DNA of 41,640 nucleotides from Oscillospiraceae bacterium. GTDB taxonomy: Bacteria; Bacillota; Clostridia; Oscillospirales; Ruminococcaceae. The stretch is taken from the NCBI GenBank assembly GCA_017547525.1, contig JAFYPL010000015.1, positions 1-41,640 of the forward strand, given 5' to 3'. Of the stretch, positions 3,778 through 30,467 are shown one piece after another. The notes beneath the pieces are model-generated. The model was not told where the DNA came from. It made no database searches and saw nothing but the letters and a program-made list of their open reading frames with translations. Position 1 is the first letter of the stretch. The number at the start of each line of letters is the position of its first letter. The position numbers were made by a program, and so were the translations under genes.

Positions 3778-3843
3778 TTTATCACCCGAAAAATATTTTA
3801 TAATATGACCAAAGAAAAAAATGTCCGATTAAGCAAAATAAAA

Positions 3844-3870
3844 ACGGGATAAAACCACGTTTTATCCCGT
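3844..3870 (-). terminator. Terminator of the MATE gene
   Basis: ACGGGATAAAAC (3844-3855) pairs perfectly with GTTTTATCCCGT (3859-3870), a 12-bp stem with a 3-base loop. It is followed on the minus strand by a T-rich run, 15 bases after the MATE stop codon. Confidence 0.9.
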
Positions 3871-3884
3871 ATATATTTATTCAA

Positions 3885-5264
3885 TTATGCTTCTACAGTT
3901 TTTTCTGTATCTGTAACACGTTTAGATACAAAAGCTTTACCTCTCCAGCCACCTGTGAGGTAACGGATAGTGTTGAGTGAAAGAACTGTACACCAACCGA
4001 TAACCATACCAGCCCAGATAGAAATTTCGCCCATCTGCAGTGAGTGAACCATGATATGTGTCACAGGTACACGCACAACTACCATACAGATACTTGCAAG
4101 CATAGCAAATTTAGTATCGCCAACACCACGATGGAACTGGTTGAGAGCCTGGAACAGACCGAAGATAAACAGGAATTTAGCTGCGAAACCAATACCCATT
4201 GAAGCCAGTTCAACAACCTTTACATCTTCTGCCAGACCGAAAAGGTTGATGATTGCAGGAGCAATTACAGGCAATACGAATGCCATTGTAAGGCCGAAAA
4301 TAAGCTGCATTGTAATAGTAGCTTTAACGCCTTCTTTAGCACGTTTTTCCTGACCTGCGCCGATATTCTGACCTGCAAACATGGAAAGAGCCATTGCAAA
4401 CTGCATCAGTGGCATTGTTACAAAGTTTTCAATTCTGTTGGACACACCGAAAGCTGCAGTCATATCCGCACCGAAGTAGTTTACGTAAGACTGAACAAAC
4501 ATCATACCTACAGAAACTACAGACTGCTGTACAGCTGATGGCAGACCATAGTTGATGATAGCTCCGATAATAGTTCTGTCAAATATCCATTCGCCTTTAC
4601 CAAGTTTAAAGATCTGTACTTTTTTACCTACGTAGAGGTGGCAAAGGAAACCAGACAGAGCCTGCGCAAGGAGTGTAGCCCATGCTACACCAGCTACGCC
4701 CATACCGAATGTTGCAACAAAAAGAATGTCCAGAATGATATTTGTAACTGCTGCAACAATCAGAAAATAGAGTGGTGTCTTACTGTCACCGATAGCACGC
4801 AGAACAGAAGCATACATATTGTACACAAACTGGAAAGGCATGCCCATAAACATGATTTTCAGATATCTTGCACTGTCTGGCATAATATTTGCCGGTGTTT
4901 TCAGCAAAACAAGAATAGGTTCTGCAATAACTGTACCAAAGATAGCGAGAACGATAGACAGGCAAGTAATAAAAATAAAACCTGTGGAAAACACACGTTT
5001 CATTCTTTCATAATCACGTGCACCGAAAACCTGTGAAACAACAACAGACATACCTGCTGTAAAACCAAAAGCAATCGCAACCAGCAAAAACTGGATACTG
5101 CCACTGGCGGAAACCGCAGCCAGTGCAGTGGCACCTTCATAGTTACCTACTATAATGGAGTCAACTGTACTGTACAGCTGCTGAAAAATATTGCCAAGAA
5201 GCATTGGAATAGCAAACATAAAAATAGTCTTCATAGGACTACCGGTTGTAAAATCTCTTGCCAA
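3885..5264 (-). CDS. MATE family efflux transporter
   Basis: This is a polytopic membrane antiporter of about 459 residues of the multi-antimicrobial extrusion family, exporting cationic drugs or metabolites against Na+ or H+. The N-terminus MARDFTTGSPMKTIFMFAIP and the segment NIFQQLYSTVDSIIVGNYEG are typical of the NorM/DinF-like clostridial group. The second half repeats the fold (GLPSAVQQSVVSVGMMFVQS). TTG at 5264 is preferred because family members begin MARDLT; a GTG at 5273 is also possible, and the SD is weak (GAGAG) in either case. It is monocistronic, with its own promoter (5381-5409), a leader hairpin and a terminator. Substrate is unknown. Confidence 0.92.
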   Translation of the reverse strand: MARDFTTGSPMKTIFMFAIPMLLGNIFQQLYSTVDSIIVGNYEGATALAAVSASGSIQFLLVAIAFGFTAGMSVVVSQVFGARDYERMKRVFSTGFIFITCLSIVLAIFGTVIAEPILVLLKTPANIMPDSARYLKIMFMGMPFQFVYNMYASVLRAIGDSKTPLYFLIVAAVTNIILDILFVATFGMGVAGVAWATLLAQALSGFLCHLYVGKKVQIFKLGKGEWIFDRTIIGAIINYGLPSAVQQSVVSVGMMFVQSYVNYFGADMTAAFGVSNRIENFVTMPLMQFAMALSMFAGQNIGAGQEKRAKEGVKATITMQLIFGLTMAFVLPVIAPAIINLFGLAEDVKVVELASMGIGFAAKFLFIFGLFQALNQFHRGVGDTKFAMLASICMVVVRVPVTHIMVHSLQMGEISIWAGMVIGWCTVLSLNTIRYLTGGWRGKAFVSKRVTDTEKTVEA

Positions 5265-5320
5265 AATAATCACTCTCTTTCTTCAAAAATAAATTTTATC
5301 TACTAAAACATTTCAATTTT

Positions 5321-5353
5321 AAAGATACTCACTGCCGGGCAGTGAGTATCTTT
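5321..5353 (-). promoter_or_regulatory. Strong leader hairpin, attenuator or mutS2 terminator
   Basis: AAAGATACTCACTGCC (5321-5336) is the exact reverse complement of 5338-5353, a 16-bp perfect inverted repeat around a single base. It lies downstream of mutS2 but also downstream of the consensus MATE promoter, inside the MATE leader and about 57 bases before the start codon. On the minus strand it is followed by TTTAAAATTG, a poor U-run. It may end mutS2 transcripts, attenuate MATE transcripts, or both. Confidence 0.6.
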
Positions 5354-5380
5354 ATGTAAAAAATATTAACTAACATAACA

Positions 5381-5409
5381 ATTATATAGATGTAAAATAT
5401 CAATGTCAA
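5381..5409 (-). promoter_or_regulatory. Consensus sigma-A promoter of the MATE gene
   Basis: On the minus strand TTGACA (5404-5409), a 17-base spacer and TATAAT (5381-5386) form a perfect match to the housekeeping consensus. It lies 41 bases downstream of the mutS2 stop and about 120 bases upstream of the MATE start. Confidence 0.88.
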
Positions 5410-5449
5410 GTGAACATTTACCATTTTATATAAAGTGTGCACAGACATA

Positions 5450-7828
5450 TTATTTCAATTCTACAACTGTTACACCGCTTTCGCCTTCACCATAAGTACC
5501 CAGACGGAAGGTGCGTACGTGCGGATGTCTTCTCAGGTGCTGATGTATACCACTGCGCAGCGCGCCTGTACCCTTACCATGAATAATGTACAGTACGTTA
5601 AGACGTTGCATTATACCATTATCCAGAAAACGGTCCACTTCCAGAATCGCATCATCCACAGTCATACCCAACAAGTTAATTTCTGTATTTGAGTCACGAC
5701 CATTTCCTTCGCGCTTTACTTTTGTCTGAACGTTTCGATACTGATTCTGTGGCTGTTTAGGTTTGGCTGTATCCATATAAAGGTCGCTGATATGCACCTT
5801 TGTTTTGATAATACCCGCAACAACATCAACCATACCGTTTGAATTTGCAGGCCCCTGTACAACAGCCGCTTTGTTAAGAGAGGCAATAATAACCTTGTCA
5901 CCTTTTTTAACACTTTCCAGCTGTGGGTGTTCTACAACAGCTTCCTCTTTTTCTTCCACCATAGAAATAAGTTTCTGTGACTGATTTCTGGCTATATCGC
6001 GGGCTTTCTGTAAACGCTGCTGTGCAGAAACGTTTTCCTGTTTCTGTAATACTTTAAGTTCATCAGAAAGTTTATAAGCTTCGTCCTGTACCTTCTGGGC
6101 ATTCTGTCTTGCGCGCCGTGTAAGCAGGTCAGCTTCCTGTTGTGCTTTCTGTATGATTTTGGCACTTTTTTCTTCAGCCTGACGCATCTTTGTGGCCTGA
6201 TAGTCCTTCAGTTCTTCTATTTCATCCTGACTGGCTTTCAGCTGTTTTCTCATGTCTTCCAGCTGTGAAAATACTTTATTCAGGTTTTTTTCATCGTTGG
6301 AAAGATGTGATTTTGCATTTTCTATAATTTCATCACTGATTCCCAGACGTTTACTGATATAGAAAGCATTTGATTTACCCGGCACACCCATAATAATACG
6401 GTATGTAGGACGCAGAGTTTCTGTGTCAAATTCACAGCTTGCGTTCTGCACACCAGGTGCTTCCAGTGCGTAGATTTTCAGTTCACCGTAATGGGTTGTA
6501 GCCATCACTCTTGCTCCCTGTTTTCTCAGTTGTTCAATAATACTGAGCGCCAGGGCTGCGCCTTCAGCAGGGTCGGTACCCGCACCAAGTTCGTCCATCA
6601 GAACAAGGCTGTTTCTGTCAGCCTGTTTAAGTATTTTGGCTATATTGGTCATATGGCCTGAGAAAGTTGACAGGCTCTGCTGAATTGACTGTTCATCGCC
6701 TATATCTACCAGAACACTGCCGAACAGACAAACTGAACTGCTTTCGTGAGCAGGAATAAGCAAACCACTGGCCGCCATAGTGCACAAAAGGCCTGCAGTT
6801 TTAAGTGAAACTGTTTTACCACCGGTGTTAGGACCGGTAATAATCATTGTATCGTAATCAAAGCCAAGAGAAATATCTGTAGGCACAACTTTGCCTTTTT
6901 CAATAAGCGGATGACGTGCTTTGTTCAGTCTGAATTTCAGTTCTTCGTTTATAGTCGGCATAACAGCATCCATACGGATTGCAAGCTTTGCGCGTGCCAC
7001 ATATTTATCAACATCCAGAAGTTTTTTGTAGCTGTCAATAAACAGGCCTGAATTTGATGAAACAACCTGTGAAAACTTCATCAGTATTTTGTTTATTTCT
7101 TCCTGTTCCTGATTGTACAACTGCATTATTTTTGCATTGAGGTCAGCAACTATGGCAGGTTCAATAAAATATGTGGAGCCGGATGCAGAAACATCGTGTA
7201 CTACGCCGCTGATTTCATTTTTGTGCTCTGCTTTTACGGGTACAACAAATTTATTCTGTCTTATAGTAACCACAGATTCCTGCAGGTATTTCTGATAAGT
7301 CTGGCTTTTAATAATATGGTCCAGTTTATCCCTCACACTGCTTTCAGTCTGTTTTATCTTTCTGCGAACATCATAAAGACCGTCGCTGGCAGTATCGGCA
7401 ACCTGATTTTCAGAAATAATCGCCTCTGTAATCGCCTTTTCCAGTTGTGGATTCTCTGTAATAGATGAAATCTGCCAGTCCAGTATACTGTCAGTTCTTT
7501 CATACGCAAAATACCATTTTTTGATTCTGTCAAAGTTTCGGTACATTCTGGCGACTGACAGCAATTCTGCACATGATAACATAGCGCCTTTTGTACTGTG
7601 GACAACAGCCTCGTATGCCCCCTGAGCAGAATCCAGACGAGGGTCTGAATATTTGTATATGTAGGCAGAGAGCACATCAGCCTTTAAAAGTTCCTCACGG
7701 ACAAATTCAATGTCTGTGGATGGTTTCAAATGCATTGCTTCCGCTTTATTGTCTTTGAACACACACAGTTCGCTTAACATGGACAGAATCTTGTCAAATT
7801 CTATCGCTTTCAAACTTTTATCTTTCAA
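5450..7828 (-). CDS. mutS2: Endonuclease MutS2
   Basis: The 792-residue protein has the MutS2 layout. An N-terminal MutS core/clamp is followed by an ABC ATPase with Walker A GPNTGGKT at residues 332-339 and Walker B LVLMDELGAGTDPAEG, then a long Gln/Lys/Glu-rich coiled coil, a KOW-like segment and a C-terminal Smr domain with HGKGTGALR. MutS2 lacks the mismatch-recognition domain; it is implicated in limiting recombination and, in Bacillus, in splitting collided ribosomes. The start is TTG at 7828, placed by an AGGAG eight bases upstream that overlaps the end of recO. It follows recO by two bases, so the two are co-transcribed. Confidence 0.97.
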   Translation of the reverse strand: MKDKSLKAIEFDKILSMLSELCVFKDNKAEAMHLKPSTDIEFVREELLKADVLSAYIYKYSDPRLDSAQGAYEAVVHSTKGAMLSCAELLSVARMYRNFDRIKKWYFAYERTDSILDWQISSITENPQLEKAITEAIISENQVADTASDGLYDVRRKIKQTESSVRDKLDHIIKSQTYQKYLQESVVTIRQNKFVVPVKAEHKNEISGVVHDVSASGSTYFIEPAIVADLNAKIMQLYNQEQEEINKILMKFSQVVSSNSGLFIDSYKKLLDVDKYVARAKLAIRMDAVMPTINEELKFRLNKARHPLIEKGKVVPTDISLGFDYDTMIITGPNTGGKTVSLKTAGLLCTMAASGLLIPAHESSSVCLFGSVLVDIGDEQSIQQSLSTFSGHMTNIAKILKQADRNSLVLMDELGAGTDPAEGAALALSIIEQLRKQGARVMATTHYGELKIYALEAPGVQNASCEFDTETLRPTYRIIMGVPGKSNAFYISKRLGISDEIIENAKSHLSNDEKNLNKVFSQLEDMRKQLKASQDEIEELKDYQATKMRQAEEKSAKIIQKAQQEADLLTRRARQNAQKVQDEAYKLSDELKVLQKQENVSAQQRLQKARDIARNQSQKLISMVEEKEEAVVEHPQLESVKKGDKVIIASLNKAAVVQGPANSNGMVDVVAGIIKTKVHISDLYMDTAKPKQPQNQYRNVQTKVKREGNGRDSNTEINLLGMTVDDAILEVDRFLDNGIMQRLNVLYIIHGKGTGALRSGIHQHLRRHPHVRTFRLGTYGEGESGVTVVELK

Positions 7829-7830
7829 TG

Positions 7831-8601
7831 TTACATCTCCTGTGATTGTACACTCTTTAAAAATTGTAATGTTTTATATTCTGGTTTGGTATGCCGCAGT
7901 ACATATGCTTCCCGCACCATTGACAGATGATTTGCAAAAAAGTCATTTACCGTAAACGAAAACATTTTCTCAAGATCTGCGTATGCAAAATAGCGCATCG
8001 CCAGTGCTGCAGGTTTTTCAAGAATCATTCTGTCCGCCTGATAGGACTTTATACAGTCGCAGCATACAATGTCACTATTGACCACATCTATGAAGAAAAT
8101 ATCTTTTTCATATTCACCGCAGGTTTTACACCCCAATAAATCGGGGCGAAAACCTGTATCACACATCAGTCGCATTTCAAATGCAGCTTTACATAACGAA
8201 ACCTGCCATTTACCTGTAGTAAGCATGTGAAGTATATTCAGATACAGACGAAGTATCTCATTATTCATGTCGTTAGGTACGCTCACTTCACATACAAGCT
8301 CTGACATGTACATTGCCAACGCCAGATACTCTACATTAGCAGATAATGCATGAAAAATGTGCTTTACCGACGCTTCATTCAACTGGTACAGGTCAGATGA
8401 TCGGGACCGGAAAATGACAAACTCACTGTATGTAAACAAACCAGTGGCGCTATGAAACCTGTTTTTCAACCTCATAGCACCTTTTACGTAAATATTGATA
8501 ACCCCAAGCTCTTTACTGAGAACAGTTATAATTTTATCACTTTCCTTGGTTTTTATCTCTTTTATTACTATTCCCGTTATTGTCTGTGTCTGTACGCTCA
8601 T
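7831..8601 (-). CDS. recO: DNA repair protein RecO
   Basis: RecO loads RecA onto SSB-coated DNA with RecR. The 256-residue protein starts with the OB-fold (TITGIVIKEIKTKESDKIIT, GVINIYVKGAMR) and ends with a helical domain holding a four-Cys zinc site (GCKTCG and CCDC). The length is normal. The ATG at 8601 lies inside the end of yqzL, with GGGGAT as SD, so 65 bases are read in two frames. The order era-yqzL-recO is typical of Bacillota, and mutS2 follows two bases later. Confidence 0.95.
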   Translation of the reverse strand: MSVQTQTITGIVIKEIKTKESDKIITVLSKELGVINIYVKGAMRLKNRFHSATGLFTYSEFVIFRSRSSDLYQLNEASVKHIFHALSANVEYLALAMYMSELVCEVSVPNDMNNEILRLYLNILHMLTTGKWQVSLCKAAFEMRLMCDTGFRPDLLGCKTCGEYEKDIFFIDVVNSDIVCCDCIKSYQADRMILEKPAALAMRYFAYADLEKMFSFTVNDFFANHLSMVREAYVLRHTKPEYKTLQFLKSVQSQEM

Positions 8602-8704
8602 CTTTATCCCCGTGTAAATGGGTATTATTTATGCTGTTACGGTATATCAGATAGTCTTCCACCCTACCGCTTTCGCAAAATTTTTGCCAGTAATCTGTTT
8701 TCAT
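8537..8704 (-). CDS. yqzL: YqzL-like small protein
   Basis: This 55-residue frame starts MKTDYWQKFCESGRVEDYLI and ends in a polar Lys/Asn/Asp-rich tail. The short W-x-x-F-x-x-[ST]-G-x-x-x-x-Y-L pattern and the location between era and recO match YqzL, a small protein of unknown function found in spore formers. The last 65 bases overlap the start of recO, and the tail is longer than I would expect for YqzL. The SD is GGGGG at 8713-8717, eight bases before the ATG and buried in the 3' arm of a hairpin. Identification rests on context plus a short motif. Confidence 0.75.
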   Translation of the reverse strand: MKTDYWQKFCESGRVEDYLIYRNSINNTHLHGDKDERTDTDNNGNSNKRDKNQGK

Positions 8705-8713
8705 TTTTTTAGC

Positions 8714-8748
8714 CCCCGTAATTTATAAATTTAGTATAAATCACGGGG
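8714..8748 (-). promoter_or_regulatory. Hairpin sequestering the yqzL ribosome site
   Basis: On the minus-strand RNA bases 8748-8735 (CCCCGTGATTTATA) pair with 8727-8714 (TATAAATTACGGGG) over 14 positions, with one G-U pair and a seven-base loop. The 3' arm contains most of the GGGGG SD of yqzL, and no U-run follows (AAAAAAATG comes next), so this is not an ordinary era terminator. It may damp yqzL-recO translation or stabilise the upstream mRNA end. Confidence 0.6.
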
Positions 8749-8779
8749 ACAGAATTATTAATGGAAATTAAAACCGGAA

Positions 8780-9676
8780 CTATTCGTCTTTGAATCCGAA
8801 ATCGTTGAGGATGTAGTTGGAATCTCTCCAGTCTTCTTTTACTTTCACCCAGCACTGCATGTTTACTTTTGCAGAGAGGAAATCTTCAATATCTGCTCTT
8901 GCCTGTGAGCCGATTTTTTTCAGCATAGCACCCTGTTTGCCGATAATCATACCTTTGTGGCTTTTCTTTTCACAGTAAATAACCACGCTGATATCTATCA
9001 TGTTTTTGCCATTTCTTTCTTTGAACTGTTCCACTTCCACGTTTGTGCCGTGTGGAATTTCATCACGCATATTCAGCAGAAGTTTTTCACGTACTATTTC
9101 TGCCACGATTACTTTTTCAGGAATATTTGTAACTGCATCATCTTCAAAGTAATGTGGACCTTCCATAGCATAGCTGTCAATTTTTTCCATAAGGTAATCA
9201 ACGTTGTTGTTTTCTTTTGCAGAAATCAGTATTACCTCGTCAAATACACCCAGTTCTCTGATTTTTTCAGCCTGTTCCTCGGCATCTTTTTCTTTCTTCA
9301 GAGTATCTTTTTTATTGATAACCGCAAGAGCTGGCAGTCTGGATTTTTTGATGCTTTCAACCAGCGCCAATTCTGCTTCATTAAAGTCTCCGTATGGCTC
9401 AAACAGCATTACTGCCAGATCTGTATCGGCAATTGTTTTATGGCTTGTCTTTACCATTCTTTCGCCTAATTTTGTTTTAGGTGAATGAATACCAGGTGTG
9501 TCCATAAATACAAACTGTGTAATACCTTTTGTAAGGATACCTGTTATGCTTGTACGTGTTGTCTGTGGTTTCTGTGTTACAATGGCAATTTTTTCGCCCA
9601 GAATAAGGTTCATCAGTGAAGATTTACCTACGTTTGGTTTACCTACGATTGCCACAAAAATTGATTTGGATTCCAT
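8780..9676 (-). CDS. era: GTPase Era
   Basis: Era is an essential GTPase that binds 16S rRNA and assists 30S maturation. The 298-residue protein shows G1 GKPNVGKSS, G2 region TTRTSITG, G3 DTPGIH, G4 NKKD and the SAKE G5 motif. A C-terminal KH domain follows, with the GMIIGKQGAMLKKIG RNA-binding loop. The SD AAGGAAAA lies just before the ATG. Its start abuts the dgkA stop, so the genes are one transcript. Length and motifs are normal. Confidence 0.98.
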   Translation of the reverse strand: MESKSIFVAIVGKPNVGKSSLMNLILGEKIAIVTQKPQTTRTSITGILTKGITQFVFMDTPGIHSPKTKLGERMVKTSHKTIADTDLAVMLFEPYGDFNEAELALVESIKKSRLPALAVINKKDTLKKEKDAEEQAEKIRELGVFDEVILISAKENNNVDYLMEKIDSYAMEGPHYFEDDAVTNIPEKVIVAEIVREKLLLNMRDEIPHGTNVEVEQFKERNGKNMIDISVVIYCEKKSHKGMIIGKQGAMLKKIGSQARADIEDFLSAKVNMQCWVKVKEDWRDSNYILNDFGFKDE

Positions 9677-10153
9677 TTATTTTTCCTTTTTATTGTAATT
9701 GTCTATTGTTATAAAGAAATACGACGCAATTATATACGCCAGAAGACCTGCAGGTGCCAGGACACCTGATGTATAGTGTGCGATTATGTTAGATATACCC
9801 TGTGGGTCAAAAAAAATAATGAACGCTATTACAACTACACCAATTGTCATAATAAGCACTGCACCTGCAGCAGTGTCTTTTGCATCACCGGCAGGCATCC
9901 AATGTTCTGCATCCGGTTTATGCACTGCCCTTTCCACGGCAGTATTCATAAGTTCAAAAGCAGGGATAAGAAAAGTAACAAGTACTATAATTGCTGTTTC
10001 GCCACGGGTAAAATCATAAAACTGCATATGAAACCAGACAAACAGCATTGCAACAATGTCTATGCGCATATTACGTTCTTCTTTTATTCCCAGTTTTATA
10101 CCTTGCAAAGCATAGCCCATGCTTCTGAAAAATCTTTTAAATAAACTTATCAT
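9677..10153 (-). CDS. dgkA: Diacylglycerol/undecaprenol kinase family protein
   Basis: A 158-residue membrane protein of the DgkA family. In Gram-positives these enzymes usually phosphorylate undecaprenol rather than diacylglycerol, feeding the lipid carrier of wall synthesis. The amphipathic N-terminus (FRSMGYALQGIKLGIKEERN) and the catalytic/metal segment ELMNTAVERAV followed by HWMPAGDAKDTAAGAVL are clear. Further hydrophobic segments follow, giving a slightly longer C-terminus with an extra membrane helix. The start codon comes one base after the ybeY stop, and the gene's own stop touches era. The gene order ybeY-dgkA-era is standard. Confidence 0.93.
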   Translation of the reverse strand: MISLFKRFFRSMGYALQGIKLGIKEERNMRIDIVAMLFVWFHMQFYDFTRGETAIIVLVTFLIPAFELMNTAVERAVHKPDAEHWMPAGDAKDTAAGAVLIMTIGVVVIAFIIFFDPQGISNIIAHYTSGVLAPAGLLAYIIASYFFITIDNYNKKEK

Positions 10154-10154
10154 T

Positions 10155-10652
10155 TTATTCTTCTACCTGGATTGAAACTGTACGTGGTAAACCCATTTTT
10201 ACCAGTACCTCTTCTTCCTTGCGACGCATTGTTTTTTCTTCTTCGCCGCCGTTTTCATGGTCATAACCCAGCAGATGATGCATGGAATGTACAGTAAGAA
10301 AAGCTACCTCCCTTGCTGCTGAATGGCCAAACATTTCAGCCTGTTGCAGAGCTTTTTCCAGGGAGATAACTATATCACCCAGCATCATGGCACCTGTTTC
10401 AGGGTTTTCATCATAAATGCCATTTTCGCCCAACGGGAAGGATAATACATCTGTTTCCACAGGCTTATTACGGAACTGGCCATTCAAAACCGCAATATCA
10501 TCATTATCCACCAGTGTAACAGAAACTTCGCACGGTTCCAGTATGTCTTCGTTAACAAGAACACTGTTTACACTTTTTCTGATGAGGCGGCGCATAGATG
10601 GTGTAAATTCCACTATTTTCTGTTCGTTTTTAATCCATACTTTGTTTGCCAT
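10155..10652 (-). CDS. ybeY: Endoribonuclease YbeY
   Basis: YbeY is a metal-dependent RNase involved in 16S rRNA 3'-end maturation and 70S quality control. The zinc motif HSMHHLLGYDH near the C-terminus supplies the three His ligands, and VETDVLSFPLGE is the second conserved block. The start is set at 10652 (MANKVWIKNEQKIVEF), giving 165 residues and a 23-base overlap with phoH. A longer in-frame reading would only add sequence shared with phoH. The phoH-ybeY pair is conserved across Bacteria. Confidence 0.95.
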   Translation of the reverse strand: MANKVWIKNEQKIVEFTPSMRRLIRKSVNSVLVNEDILEPCEVSVTLVDNDDIAVLNGQFRNKPVETDVLSFPLGENGIYDENPETGAMMLGDIVISLEKALQQAEMFGHSAAREVAFLTVHSMHHLLGYDHENGGEEEKTMRRKEEEVLVKMGLPRTVSIQVEE

Positions 10653-11658
10653 AATATTTTTTACCTGTATATTTCCTTTCTGTGAATTTAGGGCGTTCTG
10701 CCGCAGTTTTTTCTGCAGCTTTTTCATAAGCTTTTACGATATCCTGAACCAGCTTGTGACGCACAACGTCTTTTTCTGTCAGTCGTACAATTGCTATGTC
10801 TTCTATACCTTTAAGTACCTGCATAGCGTCTTTCAGGCCGGATTTCTTTTCCCGTGGAAGGTCAATCTGTGTTATGTCACCTGTTACCACCACTTTTGAA
10901 CCCATACCCATACGTGTAAGAAACATTTTCATCTGTTCTTTGGTTGTGTTCTGTGCCTCGTCCAGAATAATGAAACTGTCGTCCAAAGTACGACCACGCA
11001 TATACGCCAAAGGCGCAACTTCTATCACACCTTTTTCCATAAGTTTCTGGAATGTTTCAGGTCCCATCATATCAAACAGGCCATCATAGAGCGGGCGCAG
11101 ATATGGGTCAACCTTTGTCTGAAGGTCACCTGGTAAAAAGCCCAGCTTTTCACCTGCTTCTACCGCAGGACGTGTAAGGATAATTCTTGATACATTACCG
11201 GCCTTGAAATTTTTAACGGCCATAGCTACAGCCAGATAAGTTTTACCAGTACCTGCAGGACCTACGCCAAATGTAATAGAATTTTTATCTATCTGGTTCA
11301 GATATTCTTTCTGCCCCAGTGTTTTTGCTCTGATAGGCTTACCTTTAGCTGTCAGGAGAACCAGATCACCAGTAAGTTCGCGTGCTTTACTGCCGTTGTT
11401 TTCAAATGCAAGTGTTGTGCAATAACGAACAGCCTGCTCATCCAGCTCTGTACCACGTTTATACAGATCTTCCATAGCTGTCAGAGCGCTGATAGTATTG
11501 TTTACACTGTCATCATCACCCGTTACTTTAAAAGACGTACCGCGGCATATAATAGCTGAATTCAATGTTTTTTCCATAAAGGATATATTGTTGTTGAAAG
11601 GGCCACAAATAGCCAGTGCTATATCGTTGTCCAGAACCTCAAAAATTTTCTCTGCCAA
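10630..11658 (-). CDS. phoH: PhoH-like ATPase
   Basis: The 342-residue protein has a P-loop NTPase domain with Walker A GPAGTGKT at residues 133-140 and Walker B FIILDEAQNTT, plus RGRTLDDSFIILDE and GDITQIDLPR motifs resembling SF1 helicases. The family is linked to RNA metabolism through conserved pairing with ybeY. The first hundred residues form the small KH-like N-terminal part seen in this subfamily, and a basic tail rich in Lys and Tyr ends the protein. The start is TTG at 11658 behind a strong TGAGGTGA SD. Its own promoter lies at 11690-11718. Confidence 0.95.
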   Translation of the reverse strand: MAEKIFEVLDNDIALAICGPFNNNISFMEKTLNSAIICRGTSFKVTGDDDSVNNTISALTAMEDLYKRGTELDEQAVRYCTTLAFENNGSKARELTGDLVLLTAKGKPIRAKTLGQKEYLNQIDKNSITFGVGPAGTGKTYLAVAMAVKNFKAGNVSRIILTRPAVEAGEKLGFLPGDLQTKVDPYLRPLYDGLFDMMGPETFQKLMEKGVIEVAPLAYMRGRTLDDSFIILDEAQNTTKEQMKMFLTRMGMGSKVVVTGDITQIDLPREKKSGLKDAMQVLKGIEDIAIVRLTEKDVVRHKLVQDIVKAYEKAAEKTAAERPKFTERKYTGKKYYGKQSMD

Positions 11659-11689
11659 AGTTTCACCTCATAAGTTTTCTTAATGATTA

Positions 11690-11718
11690 AGTATAGCATA
11701 TTTATATAAATAAGTAAA
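11690..11718 (-). promoter_or_regulatory. Candidate sigma-A promoter of phoH
   Basis: TTTACT (11713-11718), 17 bases, then TATACT (11690-11695) preceded by TGC, an extended -10. It lies 32 bases upstream of the phoH TTG start, in the 67-base gap after yqfD, so housekeeping genes downstream need not depend on the sporulation genes upstream. Confidence 0.65.
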
Positions 11719-11725
11719 CAATACA

Positions 11726-12859
11726 CTATGTCATAATATACAGCCCATCCACTGTACATACAGCCGATATCCCATCTGTTTCCAGTCTATAATCATAGTT
11801 TCTATAAAACTCTTTTTCCAGTTTTCTGTCATTTATAATCATGTTGTTCAGTTGTGTTTGCGCTATATTCCGTATTTCGGGTAACTCCGTGGAAATTTGC
11901 ACATACTCCATAACACTATATGTCACTTTCTTCACTGTAAAAGGAAGTATAAATCCACCAAAATTCCCCGTGGTTATCGAAGACTGCTTTGTACACATAG
12001 ATAAATTTGTTATCTCGTTAGGTTTTATATTAAACTCTTTACCGAGAAAATTTACAGTTTCTTCGCTGTACTGCTGTCCCGTATATACGGCAACCTTTTT
12101 GTCGTACGGAATAAAAACCGAATATTTTTTCTCACATTCTCCGGCTATGTATGCCGCTGTCTGTGACTCATAATACCTGTTTTTACTGTCTGTTTCATTG
12201 TACCTGACAAGGATATCCCCAGCCGAGACAGGCTGACCTGGTTGCACATTGGAAAATCCCCGGTACACTCTCACATCCCTGACTACACCAGTAAGCTGAG
12301 AAACAATATCTCTATATTCGTATGTGTTTTTTTCATCTTTCTTTTCATCCCGTTTATACACCTCACAAGTAAGTATACCTTTGTAAAAATTCAACGTTAC
12401 ATAACCTAAATCTTTGTTTTCCAACATCAGTAACCGCTGAGCATCGGTAAGTTTATCTTTAGTGCATATATTACCCCGATATATTCCCTGATTATACAAA
12501 CTACAGGCAATTTTATTTTTAATAACATCATCAGTTGTTTTTATATCTATCTTCCATATAACACAGCCGTAAAAACAACACAATACTGGAAGCAATAACC
12601 GTGAAAGAATAAGACCTTTTCGTTTGATGTATGGTTTTAACAGGAAATACATCCCCTTTTTACGCACTATTTTTGTTCGGCATTGAAATCCTGCAGCCAT
12701 ACGTGAAATTTTTATATAATCTTCAGCATAACAACATGCTGTAAAACCATATTCCGCCTGCTGAACATTCTCTAATGTTATCTCCTGATTCAATATTTCA
12801 TTCAGAAAATCGCTGTAATAACCATAACGCACAGTAAAAATCACCCTGGCAAACATCAT
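11726..12859 (-). CDS. yqfD: Sporulation protein YqfD
   Basis: A 377-residue single-pass membrane protein matching YqfD. A cysteine-bearing N-terminal domain with FTACCYAEDYIKISRM is followed by a membrane segment (residues about 84-104, LSRLLLPVLCCFYGCVIW) and a large domain that includes DVRVYRGFSNVQPGQPVSAG, the hallmark of the family. In Bacillus yqfC and yqfD are sigma-E dependent and needed for late spore development, with unknown chemistry. It overlaps the yqfC stop by four bases (ATGA), so the two are translationally coupled. Confidence 0.9.
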   Translation of the reverse strand: MMFARVIFTVRYGYYSDFLNEILNQEITLENVQQAEYGFTACCYAEDYIKISRMAAGFQCRTKIVRKKGMYFLLKPYIKRKGLILSRLLLPVLCCFYGCVIWKIDIKTTDDVIKNKIACSLYNQGIYRGNICTKDKLTDAQRLLMLENKDLGYVTLNFYKGILTCEVYKRDEKKDEKNTYEYRDIVSQLTGVVRDVRVYRGFSNVQPGQPVSAGDILVRYNETDSKNRYYESQTAAYIAGECEKKYSVFIPYDKKVAVYTGQQYSEETVNFLGKEFNIKPNEITNLSMCTKQSSITTGNFGGFILPFTVKKVTYSVMEYVQISTELPEIRNIAQTQLNNMIINDRKLEKEFYRNYDYRLETDGISAVCTVDGLYIMT

Positions 12860-13134
12860 TTTCCCCTTTCAAATTCAATCCGCTCAACATTTCCCGAAAT
12901 ATGCAGCAAGCCTTTCCGACAAGCTGTAAGAACCAGATTTTTACCAGTTATAATTAACCTGTCGTCATTTAGCAGAAGAATTATATGTTCCCGGTTATAT
13001 TCGTATATTTTATTTACGCCCTCTACTGACATTATTCCCGATACATCCAAAGACAAAATCGTACGCGAAACACTGAATTCATCTTCAGTGATACCTCTGA
13101 CCAGATTTTGCATATACTCTTTCATCATTTTCAT
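12856..13134 (-). CDS. yqfC: Sporulation protein YqfC
   Basis: A 92-residue protein of the YqfC/YabP-like family, a small beta-rich domain with repeated short strands (ILSLDVSGIMSVEGVNKIYE, LLHISGNVERIEFERG). The ATG at 13134 is chosen because AGGTGA lies five bases upstream; a GTG at 13143 would overlap that SD. Co-occurrence and coupling with yqfD mark it as a mother-cell sporulation gene. It is divergent from the YlbJ-like gene; the 56-base spacer must hold promoters for both. Confidence 0.88.
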   Translation of the reverse strand: MKMMKEYMQNLVRGITEDEFSVSRTILSLDVSGIMSVEGVNKIYEYNREHIILLLNDDRLIITGKNLVLTACRKGLLHISGNVERIEFERGK

Positions 13135-13190
13135 ATTATTCACCTAGAAGAATCTTTTACAATATATATATTTATTGCTGAGGTGTGTAT

Positions 13191-14237
13191 ATGATAGCCA
13201 GAAAATATTATTCCTTTGTTTTGTGTGCCATGGGCATATTGGTAGCCCTTTATGATCCGCAATTTATAATATCATCTGTGAAGAGTGGTATGTATCTTTG
13301 CTACAACACTGTTATTCCATCACTTTTCGTACTTATGGTGCTTACTTTATATATGGGGCAGCATCATTTCATACCCATTTTATCTTTGCCATTAATGTGG
13401 TATAGCCGACTGCTGAAAATAAATGACAAAAAATTCCCGGCATATCTGCTTTTATCATTACTTGGCGGTTTTGCAAACGGCGCTATTTTTCTTAACGAAC
13501 TTAAAAAATCCGGATATACAGAAAATACTCTTAAAACCATAAGTCCGGTCATGATAAACAACTCCTTTGCTTTCTGTATATTTGCAGTAGGCGCCGGTAT
13601 GTTGGACAACGTTTATACGGGTTATCTGCTATATATTTCTCTAATTACATCTTCTCTCATAACTTCTTTCTTTTTGTCTTTTATTCACAAGTACAACATT
13701 GTTTCAAAAACAACAAACAGTTTATATAAACCAAAAAGTCTGGTTGAATGTATAAATCAGGCCGTAAACAGCATTATTTCAATATGCGGGTTTGTAATTA
13801 TTTTCTTCGTGATATGTAAAGCAATAAACCTTTACATATCATCAAAAATGTTTAAAAGCCTATTGTTTATCTTCTCTGAAGTCACCATTGGATGTACGGA
13901 AATCGCCTTAACTACTGGGGAAAATCAACTTTTCATATGTATTGCCCTGAGTATTTTCCCTGTTTGCACATTGTGTCAAGTATATAACTTTACACATGAT
14001 AAAAACATTATTTATGCGCTCATTTCTTCCCGCATAGTACATACACCTATTGCCATGGCATTATTCAATCTTTTGTGCAATATTTTCCCAGTGGTTTCCA
14101 GTACAGCAACCACATCTCATGTGGTAGTAAGGTATTTTTATAACTGTTCTGAAATATCTTCCGTTCTGTTTCTTCTGGTTTTAGCATTTGCTTTTTCCTT
14201 TGATAAAAACAAACTGTTTACTAAAATCGAAAAATAA
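13191..14237 (+). CDS. YlbJ-like sporulation integral membrane protein
   Basis: A 348-residue polytopic membrane protein. Segments VKSGMYLCYNTVIPSLFVLM, LLSLLGGFANGAIFLNELKK and ISPVMINNSFAFCIFAVGAG follow the YlbJ pattern (nucleoside-recognition/Gate fold, with the small-residue loop usually written GYPxGA and the N-N-S/CNN motif). YlbJ is sigma-E dependent in Bacillus and required for heat-resistant spores. This copy is diverged, with GGFANGA in place of GYPxGA. The start at 13191 follows a GAGGTG SD. Position opposite yqfC supports a sporulation role. Confidence 0.7.
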   Translation: MIARKYYSFVLCAMGILVALYDPQFIISSVKSGMYLCYNTVIPSLFVLMVLTLYMGQHHFIPILSLPLMWYSRLLKINDKKFPAYLLLSLLGGFANGAIFLNELKKSGYTENTLKTISPVMINNSFAFCIFAVGAGMLDNVYTGYLLYISLITSSLITSFFLSFIHKYNIVSKTTNSLYKPKSLVECINQAVNSIISICGFVIIFFVICKAINLYISSKMFKSLLFIFSEVTIGCTEIALTTGENQLFICIALSIFPVCTLCQVYNFTHDKNIIYALISSRIVHTPIAMALFNLLCNIFPVVSSTATTSHVVVRYFYNCSEISSVLFLLVLAFAFSFDKNKLFTKIEK

Positions 14238-14265
14238 TATATAATCGTACTAGGCAGGTGATTAT

Positions 14266-14496
14266 ATGGCATTATTTAAAAATTCAAAGAAGTTATTCGG
14301 AAATAATATTTCTCCGGCATGCGAATACTGTGAATACGGCAATCGTTCAAGCGACAACGCTATGATATTGTGTAGCCGTAAAGGGGTTGTATCCCCATAT
14401 TATTCCTGCAATAAATTTATTTATATGCCAACAAAACGTATTCCTAAACGCCGCCCTAATCTGCCTGAATTCACTTCAGATGATTTTTCATTGTAA
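14266..14496 (+). CDS. Small four-cysteine conserved protein
   Basis: A 76-residue soluble protein beginning MALFKNSKKLFGNN. Four cysteines lie in CEYCEYG, ILCSRKG and YYSCNKF, a spacing able to bind zinc, and the C-terminus is basic then acidic (KRIPKRRPNLPEF). I recall similar unnamed proteins in many Clostridia, but no function. It follows the YlbJ-like gene by 28 bases with an AGGTGA SD, so the two form an operon ended by the hairpin at 14509-14537. Confidence 0.8.
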   Translation: MALFKNSKKLFGNNISPACEYCEYGNRSSDNAMILCSRKGVVSPYYSCNKFIYMPTKRIPKRRPNLPEFTSDDFSL

Positions 14497-14508
14497 TAAA
14501 AAATAAAC

Positions 14509-24511: not shown

Positions 24512-26065
24512 TTATTCATTTACCGGTGTGTCAACTGATGTGGTATACACACTGCCACATGCCGGACATGTACCATCAACAGTATGGCCTACATCGCCAC
24601 ATGTTGGCGGTGGTGTGTATGTAGTGCCGCATGCCGGACATGTACCTTCTGCTGTATGGCCCACATCACCACAAACTGGCGGTGGTGTATATATACTGCC
24701 ACATGCTGGGCATGTGCCTGCTGTTGTATGGCCTACATCACCGCAAACCGGCGCTGTGTACACATTGCCACAAACAGGGCATGTGCCATTTTCTGTATGT
24801 CCTAATGTGCCGCAGGTTGCCCGTGGTGTAGGTGTTACTTCAGGTGTAGGTTCCGGAGTAGGTGTAGGTGTTACTTCAGGTGATGGAGACACTGTAGCTT
24901 CTGGAGAAGGAGAAGGTGTAGGTGTAGGTGTCGGAGTCCGTGTAGGTGTCGCACTTGGTGATAGACTAGGTGACAAGCTTGGTGATGGGCTTGGACTCAA
25001 TGATGGAGATGGACTAGGTGACAAGCTTGGTGATGGACTTGGACTAGGAGATGGTGATGGAGATGGACTTGGTGATGGTGATGGAGTAGGTGTAGGTGTA
25101 GGTGTTGCTGTAGCTACCGGTGCTTTTCTTCTTGTAGGAACAGTACCTTTGGATGGACGTTTATCCTCTGTAACGTGTTTGTGGTTCTGCACATATTCAA
25201 TATATGCCCGATAACCTTTATCGCTCAGATGAATACCATCACTTAAGAAATATTCTGCTTTACCAAAACCATCTTCATCATTTTTAAACACTTCTGCTGT
25301 GTTCATAAACACGTAACCTTCATCACGGCACATTTCAGCCAGTGCAAGGTTGAATTCGTCGATATCCTGCATTGTGATATTAGGATAGTTACGTTCTTTT
25401 GCAACCGGAAGAACAGCTGCAACGATGATATCTGTATATGGTACTTTTGCTTTTATTGCATCCAGTGCTTTTTTATACATTTCAATAAAGCTGTCTGGAT
25501 TTGTGCCGCCCGCATTGTTTGTACCGAAGTTGATAATAATTCTGCGTGGTTGCATCATTCCCAGAGCTTCAGGGATAGTAAAGCCTTCGTTATAACCTAC
25601 AAACCAGATGGATTTGCTGGTAGTAACTGTGTTAATAGGCATACCTGTTACACCCATTGTGTACTGCAGTGAAAGATGACCATAAACAGAAAGGCCTTCT
25701 GTATTGGAATCGCCTACAAATATAGTTTCACGGAAATAGTTTCTGTCTTCTATATCTGTAGCAGGGATAATTATATCTTCATATTCTTTGATTTTTTTAG
25801 TGTAAGCATCTTCATACTTTTTATCTGCCATAGGATCATAAGAGCCGGATATCACCATGGAATTTTCTGACTGGCCTGATGATTCACCTTTATCTGAACC
25901 ACCAAGTAAGGCTCCTGCCGCTGCCAAAAGGATAATAACCAGCAGCGCTCCTATTGCACCTACCTGAATTTTTTCTTTTTTATCAAGTTTTGAAAAAACT
26001 TTAACTAATTTATTCAGGTTTATTTTCTTTTTTGTTTTCTTCTTTTTAGGATTATTATTTGCCAT
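24512..26065 (-). CDS. Membrane-anchored SGNH hydrolase with P/S/T stalk and four zinc-ribbon-like repeats
   Basis: A 517-residue exported protein. A Lys-rich cytoplasmic N-terminus and one membrane helix (about residues 34-56) precede an SGNH/GDSL hydrolase domain with VGDSN (117-121), the GTNN block (181-184) and DGIH (276-279), which supply Ser, Asn and Asp-His. Residues about 317-420 are almost pure Pro, Ser and Thr in PS/PT repeats, a wall-spanning stalk. The C-terminus holds four copies of about 25 residues, each C-G-x-x-G-H-T-x-x-G-T-C-P-x-C-G. GAGG six bases before ATG 26065 sets the start. A deacetylase or esterase acting on a wall polysaccharide is likely; the end domain is unusual. 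Confidence 0.88.
24964..25059. repeat. 48-bp tandem repeat coding for the Pro/Ser stalk
   Basis: Two 48-base units (24964-25011 and 25012-25059) start with the same 25 bases and stay similar throughout. Shorter 6- and 12-base repeats of the same Pro-Ser codons flank them from about 24840 to 25110. The repeat keeps the reading frame, so copy-number change would only alter stalk length. Confidence 0.75.
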
Positions 26066-26077
26066 TTTATGCCTCAT

Positions 26078-27563: not shown

Positions 27564-27595
27564 AAAAACGGAAAGGATTATTCCTTTCCGTTTTT
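27564..27595. terminator. Bidirectional terminator
   Basis: AAAAACGGAAAGGA (27564-27577) pairs with TCCTTTCCGTTTTT (27582-27595). The stop of the minus-strand 67-residue gene sits in its loop. Confidence 0.92.
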
Positions 27596-27781
27596 ATTTA
27601 TTATCCGTATTATGAAATCAAGTTTTTCATTTATCTGCTCGAGAATTCTGATTTTATCTTTGTTATCTTCTCGCCATAAGTTTGTCTGACTGAATTCAAA
27701 ACCAAAATCTTCTTTGTCTGCCTGTGACAGGTTTGGTAAATCTTCATTGTTTAAAGCAATAATAAATGGTTCTTTCTTCAT
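27578..27781 (-). CDS. Small hypothetical protein, 67 residues
   Basis: The frame starts MKKEPFIIALNNEDLPNLSQ behind a strong AGAGGTGA SD at the right distance, and ends in a Lys/Ile-rich amphipathic helix (EQINEKLDFIIRIINKNGKE). It lies 38 bases downstream of the GTPase-nuclease fusion on the same strand, before a terminator, so it is probably its operon partner. Composition suggests a short helical adaptor. I do not recognise it. Confidence 0.65.
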   Translation of the reverse strand: MKKEPFIIALNNEDLPNLSQADKEDFGFEFSQTNLWREDNKDKIRILEQINEKLDFIIRIINKNGKE

Positions 27782-27819: not shown

Positions 27820-30378
27820 TTATTGCAGAAACTCTCGGATTGCCTTTTCCACTTCTGTGACTTCTTCCAGCAATGCGTTTGCAGACATACGCATTGCACC
27901 ATGTCCCAGTATAATTATCTGTTCCAGACCGTCAGATGTTGCAACGCGCACACGATGGTTTCTGGCTATCTGATGAGTTACTTTTTCTATATACATATCA
28001 GCTGTTTCTGCTTCTTTTGTATATACAATAGTAATGTTATGATATTTTGATATTTCACCTACATTGCCTTTTACCTTATAGGCATCAAACACCAGAATTA
28101 CTTCGCAATGTTTAAAACCTTGATAATTACAAAGTGTGTTTGCCAGTTTATGGCGAGCATCTTCAATATCCTCTTCGGCTATTTTTTTGAGATGTTCCCA
28201 TGCAAAAATAATATTATATCCATCCACCAACAGAAACTCCCTGTCATAAAAAACAGGGTTGACCGATTTATTTTTATCATTTTTAGGTGCGGATTTCAGA
28301 GCCAGATATTTGTCTGTTTTTATTTTGCCGTATGTTTGCTCAAAAATTTTCATTAATTCTTTGTCGGCTTCCAGTGATGAATAATACTGTTCTACCTGAC
28401 GTGGAGTAATTCGCACCGGGCGCACTTCTTGTTCCTTTTTGGCTTTAAGAAAACTTTCCAAATGCATTTTATTTTTAACATCATCCCATTTTACAACAAA
28501 GCCTGCCCCGTGTGTACAGAAAACACTGTCCGGTGTATTATCAAGGTCTGCTTCAGGATTATAATCATACTGCTGTATTACCCGATCAGAATTATGGCAT
28601 GGCAAATAGCCTTTGAATTGCAATACAATTCTGCCTTTGCCTCTGGTAAAGTTTATAATTTCGCTGCCATAAGAGTTAATTTCACTTACTGGCGCACTGC
28701 CGGTAAGCACAGATTTATCCCCATCTGTAAGAGGTGAATCAAACTCTCCGCTCATCTTCTGGATATCAGTCATTACGCGGCCTATATTTTCAGTAGGTAC
28801 TGTTATCTCAAAATCGTACCATGGCTCTAAAAGCACGCTTTCTGCCTGCATCAGCCCTTGCCTTACTGCACGATAGGTGGATTGACGGAAGTCACCGCCT
28901 TCTGTGTGTTTGAGATGTGCCCTGCCATTCACCAGAGTGATTTTCATATCTGTAATCGGTGAACCTGTCAGCACACCCAGATGTGTTTTCTCCTTTAAAT
29001 GGGTAAGTATGAGACGCTGCCAGTTTCTATCCAGTTTATCTTCGCTGAGCAGTGTATCAAACACAAGACCACTACCCGGTTTACCTGGTTCCATAAGCAG
29101 ATGAACTTCAGAATAGTGGCGCAATGGTTCGTAATGACCTACACCCTCAACTGTATTTGAGATAGTTTCCTTATACAATACACTGCCAGCATCAAAATCT
29201 ATTTCCATTCCAAAACGCTGGAAAAACAGGGTTTTAATAATCTCCAGCTGTATTTCGCCCATAAGGCTTAAATGTATTTCTTTCAGCTGCTCTTTCCATT
29301 CCACATGTAACTGTGGTTCTTCCTCTTCCAGCTGACGCAGTTTCTGCAGTACAGTTCTTACATCATATTTTTCATCAAACATAACTTTGTATGAAAAAAT
29401 TGCCTGAAGCACGGAATCCCGGCTGTTTTTTTCCATACCAAGCCCTTGCCCTGGATATGTGTGATTAAGCCCGGTAACAGCACAAACTGTGCCAGCAGCA
29501 ATTTCCTGCTCTGTTTTAAATTTTTCACCAGTATATAAGCGTATCCGGTTTACTTTTTCAGTATGACTTTCGCCAGTTTTATTTATCTGTGATACAGAAT
29601 CCTTTACTTTAAGACTGCCACCGGTAATCTTCATAAAAGTAAGACGGTCATTACCATCATAGGAAATTTTATAAACCTTTGCGCCAAATTTTTCGCCATA
29701 TTCTTTCTGTTGTGCATAACGGTTCACAGCAGAAATAAACTTTTCCAGACCTTCCATTTTAAGGGCTGAGCCAAAGAAACAAGGGAATACTTTTCTGGAA
29801 AATATCAGATGGGAGATATCTTCATCTGAGACACAGCCTGTTTCAAGGTACTTTTCCATAAGCACTTCATCAGTTGTGGCACATTCTTCCAGATACACAC
29901 TTTCATCATCTGTAAAGTCTATACATTCCGCTGACAGCTCTTTTTTAAGCTGTGCAATTACTGTTTGCTTATCCGCACCGGGCAGGTCCATTTTATTTAC
30001 AAAAATGAACGCAGGTACATTGTAGTTCTTCAAAAGATTCCATAATGTAATTGTATGATTCTGCACGCCATCCAGAGATGAAACAATAAGAACTGCGCAG
30101 TCCAGAACCTGCAAAGTACGCTCTGCCTCTGCACCGAAGTCAACATGGCCCGGTGTATCCAGCAGACACAGCTGCATGTCCTCATAATTTATCATGGCCT
30201 GTTTGGAAAACACAGTAATACCACGGCTTTTTTCTATTTCATTTGTATCAAGAGCAGTATTACCATGGTCAACACGACCGGCTTTTCTGATGCTACCGGT
30301 AAGGTAAAGCAATCCTTCTGACAGGGTAGTTTTACCGCTGTCTACATGGGCCAGAACACCCATAACAAGTTTTTTCAT
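27820..30378 (-). CDS. TetM/EF-G-like translational GTPase fused to a YacP/Rae1-type NYN nuclease
   Basis: An 852-residue two-part protein. Residues 1-640 follow the ribosome-protection GTPase plan: G1 AHVDSGKTT (10-18), G2 RGIT (52-55), G3 DTPGHVDF (74-81), G4 NKMD (128-131), then domains II-V with SVLYKETI and LLEPWYDFEI as in TetM. The TetM domain-IV tip (YYSPVSTPADFR) is replaced by a charged loop with KHTEGGDFRQ, so drug eviction is doubtful. After a linker, residues 716-852 form a NYN domain: LLVDGYNIIFAW, VFDAYKVKG, ETADMYIE and ATSDGLEQIIILGHGA, with acidic residues at about 719, 765, 794 and 816. YacP/Rae1 cuts mRNA in the A site, so the fusion suggests a rescue or surveillance factor. 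A tetracycline-resistance label would mislead. Confidence 0.9.
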   Translation of the reverse strand: MKKLVMGVLAHVDSGKTTLSEGLLYLTGSIRKAGRVDHGNTALDTNEIEKSRGITVFSKQAMINYEDMQLCLLDTPGHVDFGAEAERTLQVLDCAVLIVSSLDGVQNHTITLWNLLKNYNVPAFIFVNKMDLPGADKQTVIAQLKKELSAECIDFTDDESVYLEECATTDEVLMEKYLETGCVSDEDISHLIFSRKVFPCFFGSALKMEGLEKFISAVNRYAQQKEYGEKFGAKVYKISYDGNDRLTFMKITGGSLKVKDSVSQINKTGESHTEKVNRIRLYTGEKFKTEQEIAAGTVCAVTGLNHTYPGQGLGMEKNSRDSVLQAIFSYKVMFDEKYDVRTVLQKLRQLEEEEPQLHVEWKEQLKEIHLSLMGEIQLEIIKTLFFQRFGMEIDFDAGSVLYKETISNTVEGVGHYEPLRHYSEVHLLMEPGKPGSGLVFDTLLSEDKLDRNWQRLILTHLKEKTHLGVLTGSPITDMKITLVNGRAHLKHTEGGDFRQSTYRAVRQGLMQAESVLLEPWYDFEITVPTENIGRVMTDIQKMSGEFDSPLTDGDKSVLTGSAPVSEINSYGSEIINFTRGKGRIVLQFKGYLPCHNSDRVIQQYDYNPEADLDNTPDSVFCTHGAGFVVKWDDVKNKMHLESFLKAKKEQEVRPVRITPRQVEQYYSSLEADKELMKIFEQTYGKIKTDKYLALKSAPKNDKNKSVNPVFYDREFLLVDGYNIIFAWEHLKKIAEEDIEDARHKLANTLCNYQGFKHCEVILVFDAYKVKGNVGEISKYHNITIVYTKEAETADMYIEKVTHQIARNHRVRVATSDGLEQIIILGHGAMRMSANALLEEVTEVEKAIREFLQ

Positions 30379-30444: not shown

Positions 30445-30467
30445 AAAGCCGTTTATTCAACGGCTTT
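30445..30467 (-). terminator. Terminator of yaaA
   Basis: AAAGCCGTT (30445-30453) pairs with AACGGCTTT (30459-30467), followed on the minus strand by TATTTTTG. The last yaaA codons and stop lie in the hairpin. Confidence 0.8.

Follow-up and report, generated by a model that had tools for sequence, protein, structure and literature searches.

The gene at positions 27820..30378 (minus strand) of a stretch of DNA of 41,640 nucleotides from an Oscillospiraceae bacterium (contig JAFYPL010000015.1 of assembly GCA_017547525.1; the whole stretch is referred to as the window) was found to encode a protein of 852 amino acid residues, in which a guanosine triphosphatase (GTPase) similar to elongation factor EF-G and the tetracycline-resistance (Tet) proteins is followed by a C-terminal NYN nuclease domain of the YacP (Rae1) type. 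The acidic residues of the nuclease domain are conserved, the protein lacks the C-terminal motif seen in standalone Rae1, and genomes with the fused gene rarely carry a standalone Rae1 gene. With confidence only slightly above even, we take this gene to be the Rae1 of its lineage, that is, a putative ribosome-associated messenger RNA (mRNA) endonuclease whose NYN domain was moved to the C terminus of a dedicated EF-G/Tet-like GTPase.

Domain organization of the fused protein

The coordinates of the open reading frame (ORF) and its ATG start were borne out, and the ORF list includes only frames of 82-102 residues on the plus strand across 27820..30378. A chance ORF or a pseudogene was ruled out by full-length homologues with 38-89% identity and by low ratios of nonsynonymous to synonymous substitution (dN/dS). 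The features of the gene are listed below, with the basis of each assignment in parentheses.

27820..30378, minus strand: whole gene, Tet-like GTPase-NYN fusion, 852 residues (ORF list, translation, Pfam)
29710..30366, minus strand: G domain, residues 5-223, five G motifs all present (Pfam GTP_EFTU, E 8.6e-49; sequence)
29461..29682, minus strand: EF-G domain II, residues 233-306 (Pfam EF-G_D2)
29194..29403, minus strand: EF-G domain III, residues 326-395 (Pfam EFG_III)
28843..29187, minus strand: domain IV, residues 398-512, with the family motif GHYEPLRHY (Pfam EFG_IV; alignment)
28885..28911, minus strand: domain-IV tip loop KHTEGGDFR, residues 490-498, in place of the TetM loop SPVSTPADFR (alignment)
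28588..28836, minus strand: EF-G domain V, residues 515-597 (Pfam EFG_C)
28459..28587, minus strand: C-terminal extension of the GTPase, residues 598-640, NTPDSVFCTHGAGFVVKW..MH (alignment; common to unfused relatives, absent in four Tet and two EF-G rows)
28240..28458, minus strand: linker, residues 641-713, with a conserved motif around DKELMKIFEQTYGKIK (alignment)
27823..28239, minus strand: NYN_YacP nuclease domain, residues 714-852 (Pfam, YacP structure match, standalone-YacP profile)
28222..28224, minus strand: D719, equivalent to Rae1 D7 (alignment)
28084..28086, minus strand: D765, equivalent to Rae1 D53 (alignment)
27997..27999, minus strand: D794, equivalent to Rae1 D81 (alignment)
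27931..27933, minus strand: D816, equivalent to Rae1 D104 (alignment)

An earlier reading made from the sequence only had described residues 1-640 as an EF-G/TetM-like GTPase with intact G motifs and had called for a domain search. In this search the GTPase domains and NYN_YacP, that is, every Pfam domain of the protein, exceeded their curated cut-offs. The complete Pfam set of the GTPase was recovered over residues 5-597, including the five motifs AHVDSGKT, RGIT, DTPGHVDF, NKMD, and GSALK. The boundary at residue 640 stood in part, since the protein is EF-G-like up to residue 597 and continues from residue 598 to 640 as a conserved extension unlike TetM. Within the linker, residues E674 and I678 are nearly invariant in the alignments, and the motif around DKELMKIFEQTYGKIK diverges more in some fused families.

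Conservation of the nuclease domain and loss of the Rae1 tail

The Pfam match to NYN_YacP covers residues 716-849 with 168.2 bits against a cut-off of 24.6 (E 2e-49). Among solved structures, the YacP chains 5mq8 and 5mq9, which we take to be Rae1 of Bacillus subtilis, were the sole match of the C-terminal domain at E < 0.5 (E 2e-26, 135 residues). The sequence-only reading had pointed out four acidic residues in the expected places; D719, D765, D794, and D816 align with D7, D53, D81, and D104 of these chains with agreement at 4/4 positions, and are presumably the catalytic residues. All four are kept in 81/81 fused rows and in 27/27 standalone rows including Rae1, as counted after removal of 14 of 122 matches as duplicate loci, with one genome still counted twice and the contig-end row L046 taken as fused.

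The NYN domain is the region of the protein under the strongest purifying selection. In comparison with the nearest relative (L008, 89% identical), dN/dS was lowest in the NYN domain (0.013), followed by the linker (0.039), the GTPase (0.049), and the extension (0.130), and for the three relatives L008, L011, and L010, the values were 0.013, 0.037, and 0.052 for the NYN domain against 0.049, 0.090, and 0.086 for the GTPase; all are rough estimates, with 0.56-0.97 of the synonymous sites differing and, against L012, saturation of these sites. Two divergent fused proteins of about 40% identity, L126 and L127, score lowest of the set for the NYN domain (78 and 80 bits) and have an altered P-loop region, ASAD[TA]GKTT.

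The NYN domain of the 852-residue protein stops at position 140 of the 172-position standalone-YacP profile and thus is devoid of the Rae1 tail; among the rows outside the standalone set, the profile match ends at positions 140-147 in 62/91. A basic C-terminal motif, [LF]Ex[ILW]R, was found in 22/26 standalone rows, the other four having a near variant, and in 0/90 fused rows. This pattern was adjusted after the data had been seen (its first version matched 21/26 standalone rows and one of the 90 fused rows, L099), and the 90 fused rows include repeats of the same gene even after removal of five duplicate loci. By its position in the alignment, R166 of Rae1 falls within this motif, and the available text of PMC6613710 describes R166P of B. 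subtilis Rae1 as a suppressor allele, classed by its authors as loss of function. The tail may have a targeting role, which in the fused protein would have passed to the GTPase.

Distribution of fused and standalone genes

The class was sampled with 393 genomes, including that of the window, the others having been requested at a completeness of at least 90%. NYN_YacP was matched in 250 of the 393. Among the best 150 of these 250 genomes, the frame carrying the match was of 220 residues or less in 65 and of more than 800 residues in 80; the five frames of intermediate length are broken or located at contig ends, and about 100 weaker matches lie outside the best 150. The search with the GTPase identified 172 genomes at E <= 1e-80, and 129 of the 149 tabulated have a frame of at least 780 residues. 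All of these 129 fused genomes have an NYN match, 80 with an NYN frame of more than 800 residues, one (G121) with 734 residues in a split gene, and 48 with a match below the best 150. There was no overlap between the 65 standalone genomes and the 129 fused genomes. More than one NYN match was detected in 5/129 fused genomes, and a true standalone copy in only one of the five (G339), the extra matches of the other four being fragments of no more than 26.5 bits.

The phylum was sampled with 299 genomes, and eight of those listed overlap the class sample. An NYN match was obtained in 163, in 161 of them above the cut-off. The 149 NYN genomes listed consist of 18 fused, 131 unfused, and none with both states; a separate second copy was present in 0/18 fused genomes, as compared with an NYN match in 145 of the 281 unfused genomes. 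One genome (G646) carries two unfused NYN copies. Both states occur in the families f42, f43, and f48 of the class sample, in different genomes. In the genome of the window, the assembly of which is 78.6% complete, the fused gene is the sole NYN match. The earlier proposal that the NYN domain does the job of Rae1 is strengthened by this rarity of a separate copy in fused genomes. Within the genus, the gene is present in 16/16 searched genomes, in 13 with the NYN domain and in three cut at a contig end within the GTPase or the linker; over the genus, family, and order, an NYN match was found in 31/61 genomes.

The GTPase also occurs apart from the nuclease. A separate GTPase of the same family (42-48% identity) is carried by 19 of the 65 standalone genomes and a Tet-like GTPase (35-37% identity) by two more, and in the phylum sample all three genomes with an unfused GTPase at E <= 1e-150 have a separate NYN gene.

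The standalone yacP gene is located between rlmB and sigH at the three loci checked for both (L061, L067, and L177, the last being the standalone gene of G339); at L069, only rlmB was looked for. In the genome of the window, within the limit of its incomplete assembly, rlmB is on contig C6 (L178) and the next ORF on the same strand is not yacP; this ORF (L178 1986-3428) gave no NCBIfam match at E 1e-10. The position of standalone yacP is in line with the adjacency of yacO and rae1 in B. subtilis (PMC6613710, in the part available).

The proximity of yacP to an rRNA methylase gene, rlmB, is one of the points in favor of a different substrate, namely that the nuclease attacks ribosomal RNA (rRNA) or transfer RNA (tRNA) instead of mRNA and serves as a ribosome-assembly or ribosome-degradation factor, with the GTPase sensing the state of the subunit. 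A proposal, quoted in the accessible part of PMC4342817, that NYN domains mature rRNA and tRNA, and the non-additivity of yacO and rae1 mutations in B. subtilis (PMC6613710, same portion) fit this possibility as well. The B. subtilis homologue, however, is described as an A-site mRNA endonuclease in the portions available of PMC6613710 and PMC12320835, and action on rRNA or tRNA is considered unlikely.

Comparison of the GTPase half with Tet and EF-G proteins

The GTPase part was aligned over 57 fused, 17 unfused, four Tet, and two EF-G rows. The TetM-type tip (SPVSTPADFR) is present in 4/4 Tet rows and in 0/57 fused, 0/17 unfused, and 0/2 EF-G rows; in its place, the tip motif HTxGGDF was found in 57/57 fused and 16/17 unfused rows (0/4 Tet, 0/2 EF-G). 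Likewise, the domain-IV motif GH[FY]EPL is shared by 57/57 fused and 17/17 unfused rows (0/4 Tet, 0/2 EF-G), and the C-terminal extension (SVFCxxG...W) by 56/57 fused and 16/17 unfused rows (0/4 Tet, 0/2 EF-G). The GTPase is 29% identical to Tet(M), 28-29% to Tet proteins, and 47-51% to three unfused relatives. The best NCBIfam match of the 852-residue protein is tet_protect, with 412.8 bits against a cut-off of 775, which was not reached, and with 879.8 bits for Tet(M) as a control; the cut-off was also missed by four more members of the family (308.7-457.4 bits) and by the Ligilactobacillus protein described below (381.2 bits).

In the GTPase trees, the fused and unfused proteins form one clade separate from three Tet rows, Tet(M), Tet(S), and an Otr(A)-like row; the trees include these Tet rows only, TetB(P), Tet(T), and Tet(Q) being left out, and the program warned of long branches meeting. 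Trees were built on part of the rows, 68/80 and 50/80 for the GTPase and 92/109 for the NYN domain. The fused proteins make up one group, which also contains a megaplasmid protein of Ligilactobacillus without the NYN domain, the position of which within the clade is poorly resolved. This pattern is consistent with one fusion and a later loss of the domain in the Ligilactobacillus line. The megaplasmid relative of Ligilactobacillus salivarius (L048) adjoins rpsN in one record.

That the TetM tip is replaced and that a resistance label is doubtful had both been stated in the sequence-only reading, and both hold, the former by the absence of the TetM-type tip from every fused row and the latter by the score below the cut-off together with the altered tip. 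A role as a tetracycline-resistance ribosomal protection protein with an added ribonuclease, in which the GTPase would eject the drug and the nuclease would provide a second resistance action, was suggested by Atkinson 2015 (PMC4342817, as far as its text was available). The overall EF-G/Tet make-up, tet_protect as the best NCBIfam match, and the annotation of a plasmid relative from Agathobacter as TetM/TetW/TetO/TetS agree with such a role. It is nevertheless improbable in view of the tet_protect score, the missing tip, the separate clade, the presence of the gene in all searched genomes of the genus, among shared neighbors in the four compared, and the lack of any relative among the viral contigs scanned. 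The TetM-type label that databases sometimes give to such proteins is probably wrong, and genes labeled TetM/TetW/TetO/TetS (one Agathobacter record) may be translation factors with a housekeeping role that are taken for resistance genes; a Monoglobus relative is annotated merely as 'translation factor GTPase family protein'.

Possible mode of action

EF-G and TetM bind the factor-binding center of the ribosome, and their domain IV fills the A-site region. The fused protein could act in steps. In its GTP-bound form, the GTPase would dock at the factor-binding center of a paused ribosome, where the decoding region would be probed or cleared by domain IV and the C-terminal extension. Once GTP has been hydrolyzed or the protein partially released, and domain IV has withdrawn, the NYN domain, tethered by the linker of about 70 residues, would enter and cut the mRNA within the vacated A site or next to it. 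Because domain IV occupies the A-site region in TetM and EF-G, the action of the NYN domain probably follows that of domain IV or takes place at its side. Transfer-messenger RNA (tmRNA), detected in the genome of the window with 171.6 bits, would then free the ribosome. For standalone Rae1, attack on mRNA in the A site, and cleavage in the occupied A site as the event that lets tmRNA act, are described in the parts available of PMC6613710 and PMC12320835.

On this basis, we propose tentatively, as a possibility that falls short of probable, a GTP-gated A-site mRNA endonuclease, in which the EF-G/Tet cycle places and times the Rae1 nuclease and which has taken over from standalone Rae1 in a large section of Clostridia. 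Such a protein would be a pause sensor and cleaver in one, unlike the resistance GTPases and the RelE- or SmrB-type nucleases. How Rae1 is recruited to particular paused ribosomes is unsettled in the literature covered, as far as its text was available; a nuclease hard-wired to a GTPase, without the C-terminal motif of Rae1 and displacing the standalone gene, suggests that access is aided by the GTPase and offers a ready test system. For the gut bacterium of the window and many of its relatives, the fused gene is the only detected copy of this putative paused-ribosome mRNA nuclease.

Several points weigh against the assignment of the gene as a ribosome-associated Rae1. Domain IV and the NYN domain cannot share the A site simultaneously, and a sequential step must be assumed. 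The counts behind the near-exclusivity of fused and standalone genes include genomes of common ancestry and greatly exceed the number of independent losses. The NYN domain is absent in 30/61 genomes of the genus, family, and order (three of them contig cuts), and its function is therefore dispensable. A mobile element has split the fused gene in one genome (G027), and 11/91 fused rows retain the tail region (profile positions 166-171) without the motif. The altered tip alone would not exclude drug protection, because Tet(M) tolerates some changes of the loop, its S508A and triple loop III mutants remaining active (PMC4750697, in the part available), which leaves some room for the resistance role discussed above. 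No biochemical evidence for the fused protein and no experimental study of the fusion were found in the literature searched, which was partial, the main Rae1 papers lying outside it.

To the same list belongs the NYN tree, in which the fused domains are not one clade, at least two changes being needed and 0/200 bootstrap trees showing them as one group. This tree is weak (139 columns, unsettled bootstrap, with L076 as the pivot), and it is the GTPase trees that carry the case for a single fusion. L076, from G265, clusters with fused NYN domains, though its tail bears LEKIR; it could derive from a fused domain that was split off or could stand near the donor.

Finally, an unfused GTPase without any NYN match was found in four genomes of the class sample (G113, G127, G234, and G343), and 44 of the 65 standalone NYN genomes of this sample gave no GTPase match at E <= 1e-80, indicating that neither half strictly requires the other. 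Together with the Ligilactobacillus megaplasmid copy, which groups in the fused clade yet is without NYN, these genomes would suit a model in which the halves are independent, the NYN domain being an ordinary Rae1, the GTPase an unrelated translation factor, and the fusion a means of mere co-expression. This model is given a low probability, because the fusion is kept across many families, the linker includes a conserved motif, and the fused rows do not have the C-terminal motif found in standalone Rae1.

Relation to known systems

The fusion itself is not new. The sequence-only reading had supposed that it might already be in databases, and it is also in print: the available text of Atkinson 2015 (PMC4342817) reports a Tet-NYN fusion in ten clostridial species, filed in the Tet subfamily. 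By description, the two sets are alike in combining a Tet-subfamily GTPase and a YacP-like NYN domain in one ORF in Clostridiales; the family described here differs in branching separately from the Tet rows sampled, in having its own tip and extension, and in being near-exclusive with standalone Rae1. New here are the distinctness of the GTPase from the few Tet proteins sampled, this near-exclusivity, the locus, the tail loss, the selection on the domains, and the presence throughout the searched genus.

Rae1/YacP of B. subtilis (5mq8, 5mq9) and the NYN domain of the window protein can be aligned over 135 residues with the four acidic residues in common, but Rae1 stands alone, has a C-terminal tail, and is not joined to a GTPase, whereas the window protein has neither this tail nor the rlmB-yacP-sigH position. 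Tet(M), Tet(O), and Tet(S) share with the window protein the five-domain EF-G-like GTPase and intact G motifs; the latter differs from them by its 28-29% identity, the lack of the TetM tip, the extra C-terminal extension, and a score below the resistance cut-off. The unfused relatives (about 640-670 residues; Clostridia and Ligilactobacillus salivarius megaplasmids) have the same tip and extension in 16/17 rows and 47-51% identity over the GTPase (three compared), and differ in having no NYN domain.

Genetic organization of the locus

The gene yaaA is located upstream of the fused gene. The following features flank the fused gene.

30445..30467, unstranded: terminator-like hairpin between yaaA and the fused gene (consensus match only)
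27578..27781, minus strand: small ORF of 67 residues behind the fused gene, kept there in close relatives with 46-65% identity (locus comparison)
27564..27595, unstranded: terminator-like hairpin after the 67-residue ORF (consensus match only)

The hairpin at 30445..30467 suggests separate transcription of yaaA and the fused gene. Neighbors are mainly common within the genus, the gene being placed among shared neighbors in the four genomes compared. In a comparison of 27 fused and 16 unfused loci, no widely shared neighbor was detected, the largest cluster (7/43) being counted apart from the gene itself and its opposite-strand ORFs. No conserved operon partner was identified other than the 67-residue ORF in close relatives. 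A mobile or viral origin was rejected, as the scan of viral contigs for close relatives gave none and there is no widely shared neighbor.

The interrupted gene of G027 (L175, G027:C33:9500-26500) is known as separate pieces, with an insert of about 11 kb (about 3400-14500) after domain V. The insert includes genes for a serine recombinase, a relaxase, NikA-like, RepA_N, and IstB proteins, and a TetM/TetW-family gene with 1293.3 bits against a curated cut-off of 1100; a resistance element is thus inserted inside a Tet-like gene.

Further along the window, the minus-strand frame at 24512-26077 encodes a protein that by eye is SGNH-hydrolase-like, with a long stretch rich in Pro, Ser, and Thr and, close to its end, repeats of CGxxGHTxxGTCPxCG-like motifs.

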